From an uncultured Acidaminococcus sp. (GTDB lineage Bacteria > Bacillota_C > Negativicutes > Acidaminococcales > Acidaminococcaceae), in NCBI GenBank assembly GCA_900314165.1, contig OMUE01000120.1:1-6610 (forward strand): 6,610 nt of DNA, written 5' to 3'. Position numbers and translations under genes: made by a program. The notes beneath the pieces are model-generated. The model worked only from the letters and a program-made list of their open reading frames with translations. It made no database searches and was not told the DNA's origin. This document shows, piece after piece, positions 1 to 6,610 of the stretch; the stretch's first letter is position 1, and each line of letters begins with the position of its first letter.

Positions 1-26
1 TGGCATTTTTGGGGGCTTTTTTTAGT
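1..26 (+). promoter_or_regulatory. Leader-proximal flank of the CRISPR array (probable 3' end of leader)
   Basis: These 26 bases abut the first repeat. They contain the homopolymer runs TTTTT, GGGGG and TTTTTTT and end in AGT. AT-rich, T-run-containing sequence before the first repeat is typical of leaders, which hold the pre-crRNA promoter and the integration signals. The promoter and any IHF-type site would lie further upstream, outside the window. The leader assignment rests mainly on repeat polarity, since the crRNA handle sequence lies at the right end of each repeat, and on the base bias following each repeat. An alternative is that this is the trailer end. I infer the role; the sequence alone is too short to prove it. 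Confidence 0.55.
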
Positions 27-54
27 GTGGACCCCGCGTATGCGGGGATGATCC
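27..54 (+). repeat. R1, first (leader-proximal) repeat and consensus copy
   Basis: R1 is identical to the consensus. Stem arms are at 32-37 (CCCCGC) and 42-47 (GCGGGG) around GTAT (38-41). The bases ATGATCC (48-54) plus base 55 would form the crRNA handle for S1. In polarised acquisition this is the copy duplicated at each new integration. The reverse complement of the repeat is free of stop codons in all three frames, which produces the spurious peptides [18 protein letters not shown] and SSPHTRGP. On the plus strand one of the three frames contains TGA. Confidence 0.9.
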
Positions 55-176
55 TAGGCTTCATCCAGAGTGATCAGTGTGATCCCGGTGGACCCCGCGT
101 ATGCGGGGATGATCCTGATATTGTTAGTCGTGCTTTTGTTTTGGGTAAGTGGACCCCGCGTATGCGGGGATGATCC

Positions 177-209
177 TGCGTCACTCCTTACCGCCGCCGC
201 CGCTATCAC
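177..209 (+). other. Spacer S3, overlaps S79 on the opposite strand
   Basis: The last 20 nt (190-209), which include a CCG-repeat tract and end GCTATCAC, are the exact reverse complement of the last 20 nt of S79 (4828-4847). The overlap runs to the 3' end of both spacers, so the two protospacers converge on one target and together cover 46 bp. Part of the overlap is low complexity, but GTGATAGC at its edge is not. S3 is among the newest spacers and S79 among the older ones. Confidence 0.85.
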
Positions 210-359
210 GTGGACCCCGCGTATGCGGGGATGATCCCCTGTAACGTAGGCCACGACGTAGCCGATTAAGGTGGACCCCGCGTATGCGGGGATGATCCCT
301 GGAACAGCATAGTTCTTGACAACAAGCTGGCGTGGACCCCGCGTATGCGGGGATGATCC

Positions 360-392
360 TCAAATGGAATGGCGAAGAATGGGAGTATGAGG
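360..392 (+). other. Spacer S6, variant of the target also hit by S84 and S20
   Basis: Positions 365-392 align with the first 28 nt of S84 (5120-5147) with two mismatches, both A in S6 and C in S84. In the shared frame S6 reads W-N-G-E-E-W-E-Y-E and S84 reads W-T-G-E-A-W-E-Y-E. Both differences are non-synonymous, so the invader sequence had diverged when S6 was taken. S6 also supplies the bases just upstream of the S84 protospacer: AA before its first T. Confidence 0.85.
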
Positions 393-617
393 GTGGACCC
401 CGCGTATGCGGGGATGATCCTCCAGTATAGGGGCAAAAGAAGCCAGAAAGAAAGTGGACCCCGCGTATGCGGGGATGATCCTCTCTGGCCTTGTACAAGG
501 TAACCAAGCTGGAAGTGGACCCCGCGTATGCGGGGATGATCCTGTTGTCGTTTGCATCCCGGATTTCCGGGTGCTGTGGACCCCGCGTATGCGGGGATGA
601 TCCCGACGGAGTGTTTA

Positions 618-797
<180 letters not shown>

Positions 798-1214
798 TTA
801 CAGTATAGGTAATGCTTCCGTGGACCCCGCGTATGCGGGGATGATCCCATATCAATCATTCGTGGCGATTCAGCCACGATGTGGACCCCGCGTATGCGGG
901 GATGATCCTGTGGCTAAGTGCTACCAGGATAACATCCATCCGTGGACCCCGCGTATGCGGGGATGATCCTAACCCGCCAAGAGCATATTTACGGGCGTAG
1001 GAGTGGACCCCGCGTATGCGGGGATGATCCCCTACGGCAAAGAGTCCCCGCTTGTCAATTCGAGTGGACCCCGCGTATGCGGGGATGATCCTATGCTCTG
1101 GGCGGATTATTCCTCCTGGACGATGTGGACCCCGCGTATGCGGGGATGATCCTTCGACCCATTGGGAAAAGGTCTAATGACGCAGAGTGGACCCCGCGTA
1201 TGCGGGGATGATCC

Positions 1215-1247
1215 TGGGAGTATGAGGAAATCCCCGTTGAACCTGAA
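1215..1247 (+). other. Spacer S20, same gene as S84 and S6
   Basis: The first 18 nt (TGGGAGTATGAGGAAATC) equal the last 18 nt of S84 (5135-5152). In the common frame S20 reads W-E-Y-E-E-I-P-V-E-P-E, extending the peptide seen in S84. S20 lies downstream of and on the same strand as S84 in the target. The protein is not recognised. Confidence 0.85.
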
Positions 1248-1657
1248 GTGGACCCCGCGTATGCGGGGATGATCCCCCTGTTCGCGGGGCGTCGTCTGAC
1301 GCCAGAAGGTGGACCCCGCGTATGCGGGGATGATCCCAAGCTGGCCCAGGATTTGTACGTATGCAGCCAGTGGACCCCGCGTATGCGGGGATGATCCTGC
1401 AGATGTTTGGCAATATGCAAAACATGATGAGTGGACCCCGCGTATGCGGGGATGATCCTACTCGCCTTCTTGTTCACAGCACACACATGCTGTGGACCCC
1501 GCGTATGCGGGGATGATCCTTCTTACTTCTACATCCCTGGGGAAATACAAAAGTGGACCCCGCGTATGCGGGGATGATCCCAGTCCGCCCTCTAAATAGC
1601 CCCATGCGCTCTCGTGGACCCCGCGTATGCGGGGATGATCCATGGTGATCATACCTA

Positions 1658-1858
<201 letters not shown>

Positions 1859-1886
1859 GTGGACCCCGCGTATGCGGGGATGATCC

Positions 1887-1919
1887 TTGCGTTCACATCA
1901 TCCATCTCCGTGCCTCCTT
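1887..1919 (-). other. Spacer S31, gene start on the minus strand
   Basis: Read on the minus strand this spacer starts AAGGAGG (1919-1913), followed after 7 nt by ATG (1905-1903) and the peptide M-D-D-V-N-A. It therefore resembles a second translation initiation region, next to S30 but opposite in orientation. The source gene is not recognised. Confidence 0.45.
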
Positions 1920-2616
1920 GTGGACCCCGCGTATGCGGGGATGATCCTTGATGGCAAAAGGAAAGGCTTCTGCCAACGAAGTGGACCCCGCGTATGCGGG
2001 GATGATCCTGCGGGACACTTTTTGCAGTCCATGATACTTGAGTGGACCCCGCGTATGCGGGGATGATCCTGGCTGGGAGAATGGAAACGAGATGGAGCCA
2101 GGGTGGACCCCGCGTATGCGGGGATGATCCTATGACCCCCCGTGGCCACTTCAATGGCCCTTAGTGGACCCCGCGTATGCGGGGATGATCCTGCAATCAA
2201 GAAGAGGGAAAATAAAGCCCCTCGGTGGACCCCGCGTATGCGGGGATGATCCCGCGTTTCGGGCAAACAGGTACAGCCGCCCGGTGTGGACCCCGCGTAT
2301 GCGGGGATGATCCTTAGGTTATTACGGTAAATGGATTTTTGGCGGGGTGGACCCCGCGTATGCGGGGATGATCCTCCTCCGGCCACATAATTGCTTCAAC
2401 TTCCTCTGTGGACCCCGCGTATGCGGGGATGATCCTTCTGGTGTTTACGGCTGGAATTGGACGCTTTAGTGGACCCCGCGTATGCGGGGATGATCCCTGG
2501 GCAATGGAGCCGTAGCCGGTGATGCCGAAGTGGACCCCGCGTATGCGGGGATGATCCTTCAATGGCTACGATTGTATCATAGCTTTTCAGGTGGACCCCG
2601 CGTATGCGGGGATGAT

Positions 2617-2652
2617 CCCCCGGCCCTCCAGGTAAGAGTCCAGGGCCGGGGG
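2617..2652 (+). other. Hairpin-forming spacer S43 with 11-bp perfect stem
   Basis: S43 is 2619-2651. CCCCCGGCCCT (2617-2627) and AGGGCCGGGGG (2642-2652) are perfectly complementary around a 14-nt loop. The stem recruits the last two C of R43 and the first G of R44, so in the pre-crRNA it would compete with the handle and lie directly against the Cas6e hairpin of R44. There is no T-run after it, so it is not a standard intrinsic terminator. Its origin could be a structured or terminator-like region of the invader. Confidence 0.7.
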
Positions 2653-3045
2653 TGGACCCCGCGTATGCGGGGATGATCCTTGCCACGGTCTATATCATGA
2701 CTGTGTTTTGGCGTGGACCCCGCGTATGCGGGGATGATCCTATGACGTTTTGTGGTATTGCTCCCATCAGGACGTGGACCCCGCGTATGCGGGGATGATC
2801 CTTTGCAGGAAGTAACCATACCTCATGCCCCTCAGTGGACCCCGCGTATGCGGGGATGATCCCGATAACCGGAAATAATTCCAGCGTCATTTCCTGTGGA
2901 CCCCGCGTATGCGGGGATGATCCTGACGCAGATAACCTATGCAAGGGTGTTTTGGAGTGGACCCCGCGTATGCGGGGATGATCCTGGGTCGTAGGGCCCG
3001 GTGGTGTAGTGCTCAGTGTGGACCCCGCGTATGCGGGGATGATCC

Positions 3046-3078
3046 TATGTTGCTCCAGACCTTGACGGGGGCGTCGTT
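3046..3078 (+). other. Spacer S50, near-duplicate of adjacent S51
   Basis: S50 equals S51 at 31 of 33 positions. The two differences are adjacent (CT at 3061-3062 in S50, GC at 3122-3123 in S51), in the middle of the spacer. On the minus strand an open frame reads N-D-A-P-V-K-V-W-S-N-I for S50 and has S in place of K for S51. Confidence 0.9.
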
Positions 3079-3106
3079 GTGGACCCCGCGTATGCGGGGA
3101 TGATCC

Positions 3107-3139
3107 TATGTTGCTCCAGACGCTGACGGGGGCGTCGTT
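3107..3139 (+). other. Spacer S51, near-duplicate of S50
   Basis: This is the distal member of the pair, so it is older if the leader is at the left. It carries the AGC (Ser) version of the codon that is AAG (Lys) in S50. Independent uptake from two related invaders, or uptake after the invader changed, would explain the pair. Unit duplication followed by two adjacent point mutations is also possible. Confidence 0.9.
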
Positions 3140-4692
3140 GTGGACCCCGCGTATGCGGGGATGATCCTGGCCCGGAGTCGGCTCCGTCCGTGGGCGTCTA
3201 GTGGACCCCGCGTATGCGGGGATGATCCCATTCTGTGATAACTGCGTGCGTATACAAACTTGTGGACCCCGCGTATGCGGGGATGATCCTTGTCCAGGCC
3301 AATAATTTCCACACTGGATAAAGTGGACCCCGCGTATGCGGGGATGATCCTCATTACCGGGGTTTTATTCAGCCCCAGGGCGCGTGGACCCCGCGTATGC
3401 GGGGATGATCCTTATCAATTTTCGTTTCGCTTGCAAAAACAGTTGTGGACCCCGCGTATGCGGGGATGATCCTGGACGTGTCAGCAGCCGTTTGCGCGTC
3501 GTACAGTGGACCCCGCGTATGCGGGGATGATCCTGAACTAAAGCCATGGCACGGCCCTCTCTGGGTGTGGACCCCGCGTATGCGGGGATGATCCCCGTTA
3601 CAGGCACCGTCAAGACGAGCGGCCTGAGTGGACCCCGCGTATGCGGGGATGATCCTCCGTATCCATCACATACACCTACACCGTTGCCGTGGACCCCGCG
3701 TATGCGGGGATGATCCTTTGGGAAATAATTTCCCCAGATTTAACCCGCAGTGGACCCCGCGTATGCGGGGATGATCCTACATTACATCCGTGTTGGTTAC
3801 TTCGTTCCAGGTGGACCCCGCGTATGCGGGGATGATCCTCCAGCTTAAAGGTGAACTTGTTCCGCCCGTACGTGGACCCCGCGTATGCGGGGATGATCCT
3901 GCAGATACAGCCACCAATGCCACCAACGCCACGTGGACCCCGCGTATGCGGGGATGATCCTATTACGGGGGGGACCCCGAGAAGTTTGTATACGTGGACC
4001 CCGCGTATGCGGGGATGATCCTAACAATACGAGGCCAACACGGTGCTTGCATCGGTGGACCCCGCGTATGCGGGGATGATCCTATACCCAAAGCATCCCC
4101 AAAACATCCCCAAACGTGGACCCCGCGTATGCGGGGATGATCCTCGTAGATGTAGCCCCCTGCATGTCAAGCGCATGTGGACCCCGCGTATGCGGGGATG
4201 ATCCTGCTCTCCAACAAGCTGGCCTTATTGATGTGGTGTGGACCCCGCGTATGCGGGGATGATCCCCATCGCATCATCCCTGGCACCATCGTCCACCAGT
4301 GGACCCCGCGTATGCGGGGATGATCCCGAGAAAGGCAAGGAAGCCCGAGCAAAGGCTGAGTGGACCCCGCGTATGCGGGGATGATCCCATTGAAACCATG
4401 AACGGCGAAGACCTGACAAGGTGGACCCCGCGTATGCGGGGATGATCCTGAAAATCCAAAAGATTCCACCGTCACCATAACGTGGACCCCGCGTATGCGG
4501 GGATGATCCCATAAGCCGGAACAGGTTTCGGGCAGCAAGTGGGTGGACCCCGCGTATGCGGGGATGATCCTGGGCCCCTCACACAGGCCCAGGATGGTGG
4601 CCAGTGGACCCCGCGTATGCGGGGATGATCCCTGGAACGGATTGCCCAGAAAATTCAAGCTGCCGTGGACCCCGCGTATGCGGGGATGATCC

Positions 4693-4725
4693 TTCTATTA
4701 TACCATATATCTGCTGAAAAGTAAT
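4693..4725 (-). promoter_or_regulatory. Possible antisense promoter inside spacer S77
   Basis: On the minus strand this AT-rich spacer contains TGGTATAAT (4705-4697), a perfect extended -10 element. Seventeen bases upstream sits ATTACT (4725-4720), a weak -35 with three of six consensus bases. Transcription from here would run leftwards through S76 and lower-numbered spacers, antisense to the pre-crRNA. The spacer may simply have been taken from a phage promoter. Activity in the host is not shown. Confidence 0.3.
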
Positions 4726-4753
4726 GTGGACCCCGCGTATGCGGGGATGATCC

Positions 4754-4786
4754 CAGTCATACCATCGGTGTCCACGTATGCGGGAA
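4754..4786 (+). other. Spacer S78 with repeat-like core
   Basis: Positions 4775-4784 (CGTATGCGGG) match repeat nt 11-20 exactly. The preceding GTCCAC (4770-4775) is the reverse complement of the first six bases of the repeat, and R79 begins 11 nt later at 4787. Together they could form a GTCCAC/GTGGAC stem overlapping the start of R79. Chance is the simplest explanation. Confidence 0.5.
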
Positions 4787-4814
4787 GTGGACCCCGCGTA
4801 TGCGGGGATGATCC

Positions 4815-4847
4815 TGACTTGCGCGGAGTGATAGCGGCGGCGGCGGT
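4815..4847 (+). other. Spacer S79, opposite-strand partner of S3
   Basis: The last 20 nt (4828-4847, starting GTGATAGC and continuing with CGG repeats) are the reverse complement of 190-209 in S3. Seventy-six spacers separate the two. This is the oldest visible hit on that target if the leader is at the left. Confidence 0.85.
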
Positions 4848-4875
4848 GTGGACCCCGCGTATGCGGGGATGATCC

Positions 4876-4908
4876 TTGTCACCTGCCGTGGGAGTAACGC
4901 CATTTACA
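4876..4908 (+). other. Spacer S80, exact reverse complement of S87
   Basis: All 33 nt are the reverse complement of 5301-5333. The two spacers therefore come from the same protospacer captured in opposite orientations. The bases following the match in S87 (GA at 5334-5335) would place TC before the first T of S80 in the target, giving TCT as its apparent PAM, unlike the AAT seen for S84 and S20. Confidence 0.95.
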
Positions 4909-5119
4909 GTGGACCCCGCGTATGCGGGGATGATCCTGCCTGGCATGATGACCGATCTGCCAAACTGGAGTGGACCCCGCGTATGCGGGGATGATCCTAC
5001 TCACCACCTAGCAAGGGCAACCATCCAGCTGTGGACCCCGCGTATGCGGGGATGATCCTACCTCCTGTTAAATCTTATTCAGTAAAAACGAGTGGACCCC
5101 GCGTATGCGGGGATGATCC

Positions 5120-5152
5120 TGGACTGGCGAAGCATGGGAGTATGAGGAAATC
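5120..5152 (+). other. Spacer S84, links S6 and S20
   Basis: The frame starting at the first base reads W-T-G-E-A-W-E-Y-E-E-I with no stop. The first 28 nt match S6 with two mismatches and the last 18 nt match the start of S20 exactly. The three spacers thus give a 48-nt composite coding segment. The protein family is not recognised. Confidence 0.85.
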
Positions 5153-5274
5153 GTGGACCCCGCGTATGCGGGGATGATCCTGGAACAACAATTCGTTTTT
5201 ACGCAAACACAAAGTGGACCCCGCGTATGCGGGGATGATCCAATTCCAGACAAAAAGAGTGCTCCCGTACTAGA

Positions 5275-5302
5275 GTGGACCCCGCGTATGCGGGGATGAT
5301 TG
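5275..5302 (+). repeat. R87, the only variant repeat (3' CC replaced by TG)
   Basis: Bases 1-26 match the consensus, but 5301-5302 are TG rather than CC. The crRNA handle of S87 would become ATGATTGT instead of ATGATCCY. TG is also exactly what the reverse complement of S80 has at this point, so either the last two repeat bases mutated or the repeat is 26 bp and the spacer is 35 nt. The unit is still 61 bp long. Neighbours R86 and R88 are consensus, so the change was not copied into newer repeats. Confidence 0.95.
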
Positions 5303-5335
5303 TAAATGGCGTTACTCCCACGGCAGGTGACAAGA
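5303..5335 (+). other. Spacer S87, flipped copy of the S80 target
   Basis: Together with the TG at 5301-5302, this spacer matches the reverse complement of S80 for 33 nt (5301-5333) and then adds GA. It is effectively offset by two bases compared with a normal spacer. The spacer on its left, S86 (5242-5274), is one of only two that begin with A, so two neighbouring spacers both look atypical. Confidence 0.95.
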
Positions 5336-5851
5336 GTGGACCCCGCGTATGCGGGGATGATCCTGGCTCTGTACACTTCCTGCCAGCCGCTTTCTGGTGG
5401 ACCCCGCGTATGCGGGGATGATCCCAGCTCCGGCAGCTTTACCGTCGACGACTCCGGGTGGACCCCGCGTATGCGGGGATGATCCTTGGTCGGGGGCACC
5501 GTTGACTAGGGCGGAGATGTGGACCCCGCGTATGCGGGGATGATCCTAAATCATGACGAGCATTAATGGTGGACTGATGGTGGACCCCGCGTATGCGGGG
5601 ATGATCCTGAAGCCGGTACAGGCCGTGCAGAAGGCCGCAAGTGGACCCCGCGTATGCGGGGATGATCCCTCTTGCTCTGGTCAGTACGAATACAAACATC
5701 GGTGGACCCCGCGTATGCGGGGATGATCCTATGTAGTAGTATCGGCAGAACGGCTGAAAGAAGTGGACCCCGCGTATGCGGGGATGATCCTTATAGCGGT
5801 GCTTACCACGGCAACAGCTACGAGTGGACCCCGCGTATGCGGGGATGATCC

Positions 5852-5884
5852 TGCTGCTGGCACCGGCGGAAACGACAACCGTCC
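5852..5884 (+). other. Spacer S96, possible phage tail-collar/fibre target
   Basis: The frame beginning at the second base reads A-A-G-T-G-G-N-D-N-R followed by CC (P). Motifs of the form G-G-x-x-x-R-P are common near the C-terminus of phage tail-collar and tail-fibre proteins. The link is a suggestion from a ten-residue window and could be wrong. Confidence 0.35.
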
Positions 5885-6049
5885 GTGGACCCCGCGTATG
5901 CGGGGATGATCCTACTGTGCATCAAAAGGTGTGACCTATAAAAACGTGGACCCCGCGTATGCGGGGATGATCCCAAATCCTTCGAGACGTTCGCCGCCGA
6001 GGAGAAGTGGACCCCGCGTATGCGGGGATGATCCTATCAGTGCTAATCA

Positions 6050-6178
<129 letters not shown>

Positions 6179-6494
6179 TCAAGGCAGATGTGGACCCCGC
6201 GTATGCGGGGATGATCCTTATAATGTCATTGCGTCTTGGGAGTGCCGGAGGTGGACCCCGCGTATGCGGGGATGATCCCAGCTTTCTGACTCTGAGCGCA
6301 GCCGTTATGAAGTGGACCCCGCGTATGCGGGGATGATCCTCTGATGGTAAAGGCAATATCCGCACAGCATGGGTGGACCCCGCGTATGCGGGGATGATCC
6401 TTCCACGAACATCGTGACGGCCTCGTTTCCTGCGTGGACCCCGCGTATGCGGGGATGATCCTTATTTTTTGGGCTACGATAATTCGTTCCGTAA

Positions 6495-6522
6495 GTGGAC
6501 CCCGCGTATGCGGGGATGATCC
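6495..6522 (+). repeat. R107, last repeat, fully consensus
   Basis: The last recognisable repeat is identical to R1. No further copy or degraded copy occurs at the expected position (around 6556) or elsewhere in 6523-6610. Distal terminal repeats are usually the most degenerate, so an intact one is unusual and fits either a truncated array end or effective homogenisation. Confidence 0.9.
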
Positions 6523-6610
6523 TGAAGAAAGGAGAAGCAATATGCCGATTGATGACCTGAAGTCCGCACATTTTATATCTATGCTGCGGCAGGACAAGCT
6601 TAATTGATTC
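6523..6610 (+). other. Downstream flank of the array
   Basis: Eighty-eight bases follow the last repeat, without any repeat sequence. The first base is T, as after most repeats, so 6523-6555 could be an orphan spacer whose distal repeat has been lost. It could equally be ordinary trailer sequence. The segment contains a ribosome binding site and a short ORF. No intrinsic terminator hairpin is visible. Confidence 0.7.
6542..6607 (+). CDS. Possible 21-residue ORF after the array
   Basis: ATG at 6542 follows AAAGGAG (6528-6534) with a 7-nt gap, a good Shine-Dalgarno arrangement. The frame runs 21 codons (starting MPIDDLK, ending RQDKLN) to TGA at 6605-6607. It has no transmembrane segment and no recognised motif. 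It may be a genuine tiny gene, the remnant of a gene interrupted by the array, or, for its first five codons, part of a phage-derived orphan spacer. The coherent frame across the would-be spacer boundary at 6555 slightly favours native flanking sequence, but a 21-codon ORF is weak evidence. Confidence 0.25.
   Translation: MPIDDLKSAHFISMLRQDKLN

Follow-up and report, generated by a model that had tools for sequence, protein, structure and literature searches.

One spacer in both orientations in a type I-E-like CRISPR array, beside a probable scar of internal, off-register insertion

How did the same 33 bases come to be stored twice in one CRISPR array, once in each orientation? In the window analysed here, a whole stretch of 6,610 nucleotides, spacer S80 (4876..4908, + strand) and the 33-base insert of spacer S87 (5301..5333, + strand) are exact reverse complements over 33/33 bases, including the first base of S80, a T that is counted as PAM-derived. 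This complete match supports the proposal of a preliminary description of the locus that one protospacer was captured both ways round, and the separation of seven units that it gave was also recovered. The match can be extended to 34 bases (5301-5334 against 4875-4908) because the G following S87 pairs with the last C of the repeat, and nothing else lies behind this additional base. No other two of the 106 complete spacers are reverse complements over their full length, the next-longest exact opposite-strand match between spacers being of 20 bases (S3/S79), and a match of 33 bases cannot be due to chance.

The array (27..6522, + strand) comprises 107 repeats and 106 complete spacers in units that are mostly 61 bases long (61 bases in 104/106, 62 bases in 2/106); the sole 34-base spacers are S19 (1151-1186) and S30 (1823-1858). 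Its hairpin-forming repeat, GTGGACCCCGCGTATGCGGGGATGATCC, has 28 bases, with an identical 26-base core common to all 107 copies, followed by CC in 105 of the 106 repeats that precede a complete spacer, the exception being the repeat of S87. Combined with 33-base spacers, this repeat gives the 61-base unit of type I-E systems, and the PAM lies upstream with its last base as the first spacer base, as is also typical of this type. Therefore, the array appears type I-E-like from its geometry, hairpin repeat and PAM, the type being read here from the array itself. The exact repeat had no match in genome_contigs, and a single one, in Acidaminococcus fermentans, when two loop bases were left free; allowing up to three mismatches, the repeat was found in 1/59 family genomes, as a two-repeat remnant in an A. 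fermentans genome (G001).

The left end of the window (1..26, + strand), which terminates in ...CTTTTTTTAGT and is too short for a full spacer, is probably the end of the leader. It ends in TTTTTTAGT, as does the sequence preceding the first repeat in a related I-E array of another family genome, G050, where GATTTTTTAGT is the end of this sequence on the cas1 side of the array. The G050 array shows 61-base spacing in 21/22 cases and adjoins a Cas1 above the TIGR03638 cut-off, G050 being the only one of the 59 family genomes with a Cas1 above the I-E cut-off. Because the window end resembles this cas1-side sequence, the leader can be placed on the left, with S1 as the newest spacer under the usual rule. 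The leader would thus probably end in GT (AGT in both the window and G050), a placement that rests on 26 bases. In the G050 array itself (L049, ~850-1920), two repeat starts lie 1095 bases apart, and the 1069 bases between their 26-base cores are not one spacer.

The surroundings of S87 differ from those of every other spacer. The repeat preceding it (5275..5300, + strand) is shortened to 26 bases and lacks CC, which is unique among the 106 repeats that precede a complete spacer. Its upstream neighbour, S86 (5242..5274, + strand), is an exact match to the uncultivated phage record G060, preceded there by AA, and ends in ...CTAGA; the same terminal GA stands directly 3' of the S87 33-mer (...GACAA, then GA). 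Two identical 28-mers consequently flank the 33-base insert, both on the + strand: the first (5273..5300) consists of the GA of S86 and repeat bases 1-26, and the second (5334..5361) of GA and repeat bases 1-26, then followed by CC and S88, the complete repeat that precedes S88 occupying 5336..5363. We propose that these are the two copies of a target-site duplication. Formally, the duplication could measure 26 to 29 bases, as S86 and S87 share AGA; 28 bases are taken as its length because a normal 33-base spacer then remains, and this 28+33 geometry is that of 103/105 other units. GA is the ending of 13/105 spacers other than S87, S86 included, and the match with S86 would therefore have about a 12% chance of arising by coincidence alone.

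The duplicated bases match the end of a neighbouring spacer (GA of S86) and not that of the leader (GT), as is expected of ectopic integration. An insertion at the leader is disfavoured because the same displacement there would leave GT, not GA; a leader slip in which GA would be the leader end was dropped in favour of S86, the leader end being AGT in the window and in G050. The idea that S86 attracted the insertion as a mimic of the leader was also abandoned, since over 6, 8 and 10 terminal bases S86 agrees with the leader end at 3, 4 and 4 positions, respectively, and other spacers match it better. The shortened repeat also bears on the PAM of S87, for which TGT had been proposed: that reading presumes a 28-base repeat before S87, and the repeat has 26 bases.

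To which PAM should the two copies be compared? All 106 spacers were scanned, ungapped, against 14 stretches, comprising both pieces of G060 and 12 stretches from three family genomes. The spacers match clustered stretches in genomes of the family, presumably prophages, as well as the phage record; together with the repeat in A. fermentans, this makes an Acidaminococcaceae bacterium the probable host. In the scan, 40/106 spacers matched at ≤6 mismatches, and none did in the reversed-spacer control. Among the spacers with an exact target in the 14 scanned stretches, 7/7 have AA directly 5' of the first spacer base; this flank is found for 14/16 spacers at ≤2 mismatches and for 29/40 at ≤6 mismatches, where the 11/40 other flanks are GA (5), AG (2), TA, TT, AT and CA (1 each). 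The first spacer base is T in 78 cases, C in 26, A in 2 and never G (n=106, with S87 in the normal register). Therefore, the PAM is AA before a first spacer base that is mostly T or C, and the AAT previously read from S84 and S20 agrees with it. The exact targets of the spacers lie on both strands, with those of S3, S16, S21 and S68 on the - strand. S3 (177-209) and S79 (4815-4847), with 20 bases in common, target opposite G060 strands, and each of them has an AA|T of its own; in contrast to S80/S87, they are a proper double-strand pair without a flip.

The target shared by S80 and S87 was sought at the DNA and protein levels. Translated, the 33-mer gives VNGVTPTAGD and leaves AA as the start of a further codon, and from this peptide the target can be recognised as a phage tail-fibre motif. 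The true protospacer was not found: the exact 31-mer and synonymous-codon patterns had no matches in viral_contigs, and the sole match of the 37-mer in phages covered 17 bases of a tail collar gene (E 6). Judging by their coordinates, the listed matches of the window to named phages and plasmids contain a repeat or overlap one; the end peptide had no match in phages. The comparison was based on homologues of the G060 tail-fibre protein: of 7996 candidates scored, 6829 passed, and the 120 best-scoring ones were analysed. In these 120, the motif occurs 48 times in 41 proteins, and the residue after GD is Asn in 41/48 and Asp in 7/48 instances and Lys in none; a looser pattern gave 50 instances (NS 41, DS 7, DT 1, NT 1), again without Lys. 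At the DNA level, we counted five distinct motifs, which belong to three phage types: G060 and L063/L065 have two each, and L064/L066 has one, which was counted although the residue two before the G of GVTP is not V, I or L. They differ from S87 at 8-13 of 33 positions. Looser matches in L039 (one) and L048 (two) were rejected as motifs and left out of this count, as they have no V/I/L at that place or no GD, and two of the three contain a stop.

These homologues make it unlikely that the GA following S87 came from the protospacer. Since AA is already fixed as the start of the codon after GD, GA after the 33-mer would need Lys there, while Asn gives T or C as the next base. The two bases after the DNA motif are TT in 4/5 cases, CA in 1/5 (L064/L066) and GA in 0/5. 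The GA is thus more readily attributed to a duplicated target site at S86, because the homologues have TT or CA at this place and Lys is absent from the 48 instances. The same observations weigh upon the idea that S87 came wholly from a phage variant ending in ...GACAAGA, as a prespacer of 35 bases whose insertion at the leader duplicated 26 bases; the flank of S80 would then be TC|T, and that of S87 unknown or TG|T. A 26-base repeat and a 35-base insert likewise add up to 61. Nevertheless, in addition to the Lys codon and the GA that the best 120 homologues and the five DNA motifs, respectively, do not have, this explanation requires that the duplication and the spacer each depart from their normal length in ways that cancel exactly, and it makes the match with the end of S86 a coincidence; we consider it improbable. 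The TCT formerly given as the PAM of S80 was read from this GA after the S87 insert, which probably belongs to the S86 duplication.

Which of the two copies is the normal one was judged from the flanks of the five DNA motifs. AA|TTGTCACC is the flank expected if S80 was taken up normally, and a double PAM would also place AA before TGTAAATGG. On the S80 side, 4/5 motifs have AA|T and 1/5 has TG|T (L064/L066). On the S87 side, AA|T is found in 1/5, GA in 2/5 and AC in 2/5 (AC|C in L064/L066). These flanks, drawn from homologues of three phage types, suggest that S80 is probably normal and that S87 is flipped and ectopic, which agrees with the earlier suspicion that at least one copy is probably in the wrong orientation. 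The one motif with AA|T on both sides, in L063 (7007) and with the same sequence in L065, has exactly 33 bases between the two flanks, and it gives substance to another explanation: a protospacer with a PAM on each strand could have yielded both orientations correctly, without any flip. This is an example from 1/5 distinct DNA motifs, and the Asn before the motif that AA|T on the S87 side needs is found in 2/48 instances among the best 120 proteins. The exact peptide VNGVTPTAGD occurs in seven of these proteins, preceded by Val in 6/7 and by Asn in 1/7. A double PAM was demoted as the main reading once the protein and DNA homologues had been counted, and we now regard it as rather unlikely. 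It would in any case retain the off-register internal insertion, which is recorded by the 26-base repeat and the GA.

The neighbourhood of the pair gives a further indication. Six of the eight neighbours (S78, S79 and S81-S86) match G060 with 0-2 mismatches, showing that the neighbours of S80 and S87 belong to one phage type. All six G060 matches in the S78-S86 block are on the + strand of G060, which is the orientation of S87 and not of S80 and speaks, weakly, for S87 being the normal copy. We give it little weight because exact targets are found on either strand for other spacers. As an internal insertion separates place from age, the positions of the two spacers do not tell which came first.

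Taken together, we find it likely that a single prespacer underlies both spacers, with S80 as its normal uptake and S87 as a backwards, internal and off-register insertion of it. This 33-bp prespacer, with both ends cut alike for the two spacers, would derive from the tail-fibre gene of a phage related to G060. S80 would have been taken up with the PAM AA|T, as the homologues suggest. For S87, Cas1-Cas2 would have inserted the same prespacer backwards into the internal repeat between S86 and S88, with both strand cuts shifted 2 bp towards the leader, so that the 28-bp duplication would consist of the last two bases of S86 and repeat bases 1-26. The preliminary description had thus recognised the two orientations, one of them wrong, while its apparent PAMs did not hold and the duplication scar that points to an internal insertion had been missed.

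S80 could also have been copied backwards within the array, by template switching or inversion between repeats and with no new uptake from a phage, and the palindromic stem of the repeat could promote such switching. Nevertheless, the copied tract ends at the ends of the 33-bp prespacer, the flanking repeats are not inverted, apart from one matching base, no repeat sequence accompanies the copied tract, and template switching would not be expected to produce a 28-base direct duplication that contains two bases of S86. Such a rearrangement seems extremely improbable. An artefact in the assembly of this metagenome contig is very improbable as well: an assembler would not be expected to combine a backwards 33-mer with a shortened 26-base repeat and two duplicated bases of S86, even if the right end of the window (6523-6610) resembles a phage gene start. 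Beyond the last repeat, this end contains AAAGGAG, resembling a ribosome-binding site, and a short frame, MPIDDLKSAHF..., similar to the start of a G060 gene near 33877. Either an assembly junction running through a last spacer or DNA of phage origin adjoining the array could account for it.

The shortened repeat would also have consequences for the function of S87. In type I-E systems, the 5' handle of the crRNA is the end of the repeat. The handle of S87 would be ATGATTGT, and that of the other spacers is ATGATCC plus one base. In the predicted S87 crRNA, TGT would hence terminate the handle in place of CC plus one base, and the normal PAM would be absent from the target; with both changes, this crRNA should be weakened. 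Within the array, S80 and S87 are each a perfect target of the other's crRNA, flanked there by TC|T and AC|T. Self-attack would not be expected, because these flanks are not AA.

Pairs of this kind have precedents. Complementary spacer pairs were reportedly seen in E. coli populations by Shmakov in 2014. S87 shares one character with flipped spacers, being the reverse complement of a prespacer that was also taken up the other way round, with the same ends. Flipped spacers have been documented in type I-F, where flipping rises with slips of at least 2 nt and less than 0.5% of spacers were estimated to be flipped (PMC5059440); elsewhere, prespacers were described as integrating in direct or reverse orientation, and flipped spacers were removed from the analysis (PMC6787059). 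As proposed for S87, the protospacer is integrated in the opposite orientation in the flipped spacers of I-E/I-F adaptation (Staals 2016, PMC5059440). In contrast, those adaptation studies concern laboratory populations, whereas S80/S87 present both orientations within one natural array, and the slips occur at the PAM, whereas the shift of S87 would be at the integration site.

Ectopic acquisition at an internal repeat rather than at the leader end, as proposed for S87, has been observed in type II-A (Achigar et al., 2021, PMC7999890; review PMC8047081). That system is type II-A, and the available portion of the account mentions neither off-register duplication nor a flip, while S87 belongs to a type I-E-like array and its insertion is deduced from a scar in one sequence. 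At the first repeat of type I-E arrays, staggered nicks are made on both strands and the repeat is duplicated (Arslan et al., 2014, PMC4081107); the scar of S87 would be similar in its staggered nicking and duplication, with the proposed duplicated block internal and displaced by 2 bp. In addition, off-target integration in type II-A favours guanine at the cut (PMC6895254), and the displaced leader-side cut at S87 would also precede a G. We recognised no description of a flipped pair together with an off-register duplication in one natural array in the open-licence literature covered by our search terms, as judged from titles and the starts of abstracts. Flipping and ectopic insertion are each known; what is new here is the off-register scar in combination with them.

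One sequence may record three errors of spacer uptake together, in orientation, place and register. If our reading holds, the duplication scar offers a simple test for internal insertion in any array, which matters as array order serves as a clock. The duplication would keep its 28-bp length while both cuts move, and this bears on how the length is measured. As a tentative extension, internal off-register integration could be an error route in its own right for the type I-E Cas1-Cas2 complex: at a distance from the leader, only the 28-bp geometry would hold it, perhaps with a preference for G at the cut (here in the GA of S86), and the PAM orientation check would be lost, so that misplaced spacers would tend to flip too. 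If this route exists, it should be possible to read such scars in natural arrays, and a spacer's position could no longer be assumed to give its age.

Several other spacers in these arrays also have overlapping sequences or targets. In the G050 array, the third and fourth spacers of L049, which are adjacent, overlap on opposite strands over ~23 bases, of which one is mismatched and at most 12 in a row are identical; this overlap is offset and is hence not a flip. In the window, the adjacent S50 (3046-3078) and S51 (3107-3139) differ at 2/33 bases. S51 comes nearest to phage G060 (4 mismatches), and S50 to a G001 stretch (5 mismatches), suggesting that one site was taken up twice, from two phage variants. 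Finally, S6 (358-392), S20 (1213-1247) and S84 (5118-5152) overlap on one short phage gene (KWNGEAWEYEEIP), which is located just downstream of the tail-fibre gene of G060.
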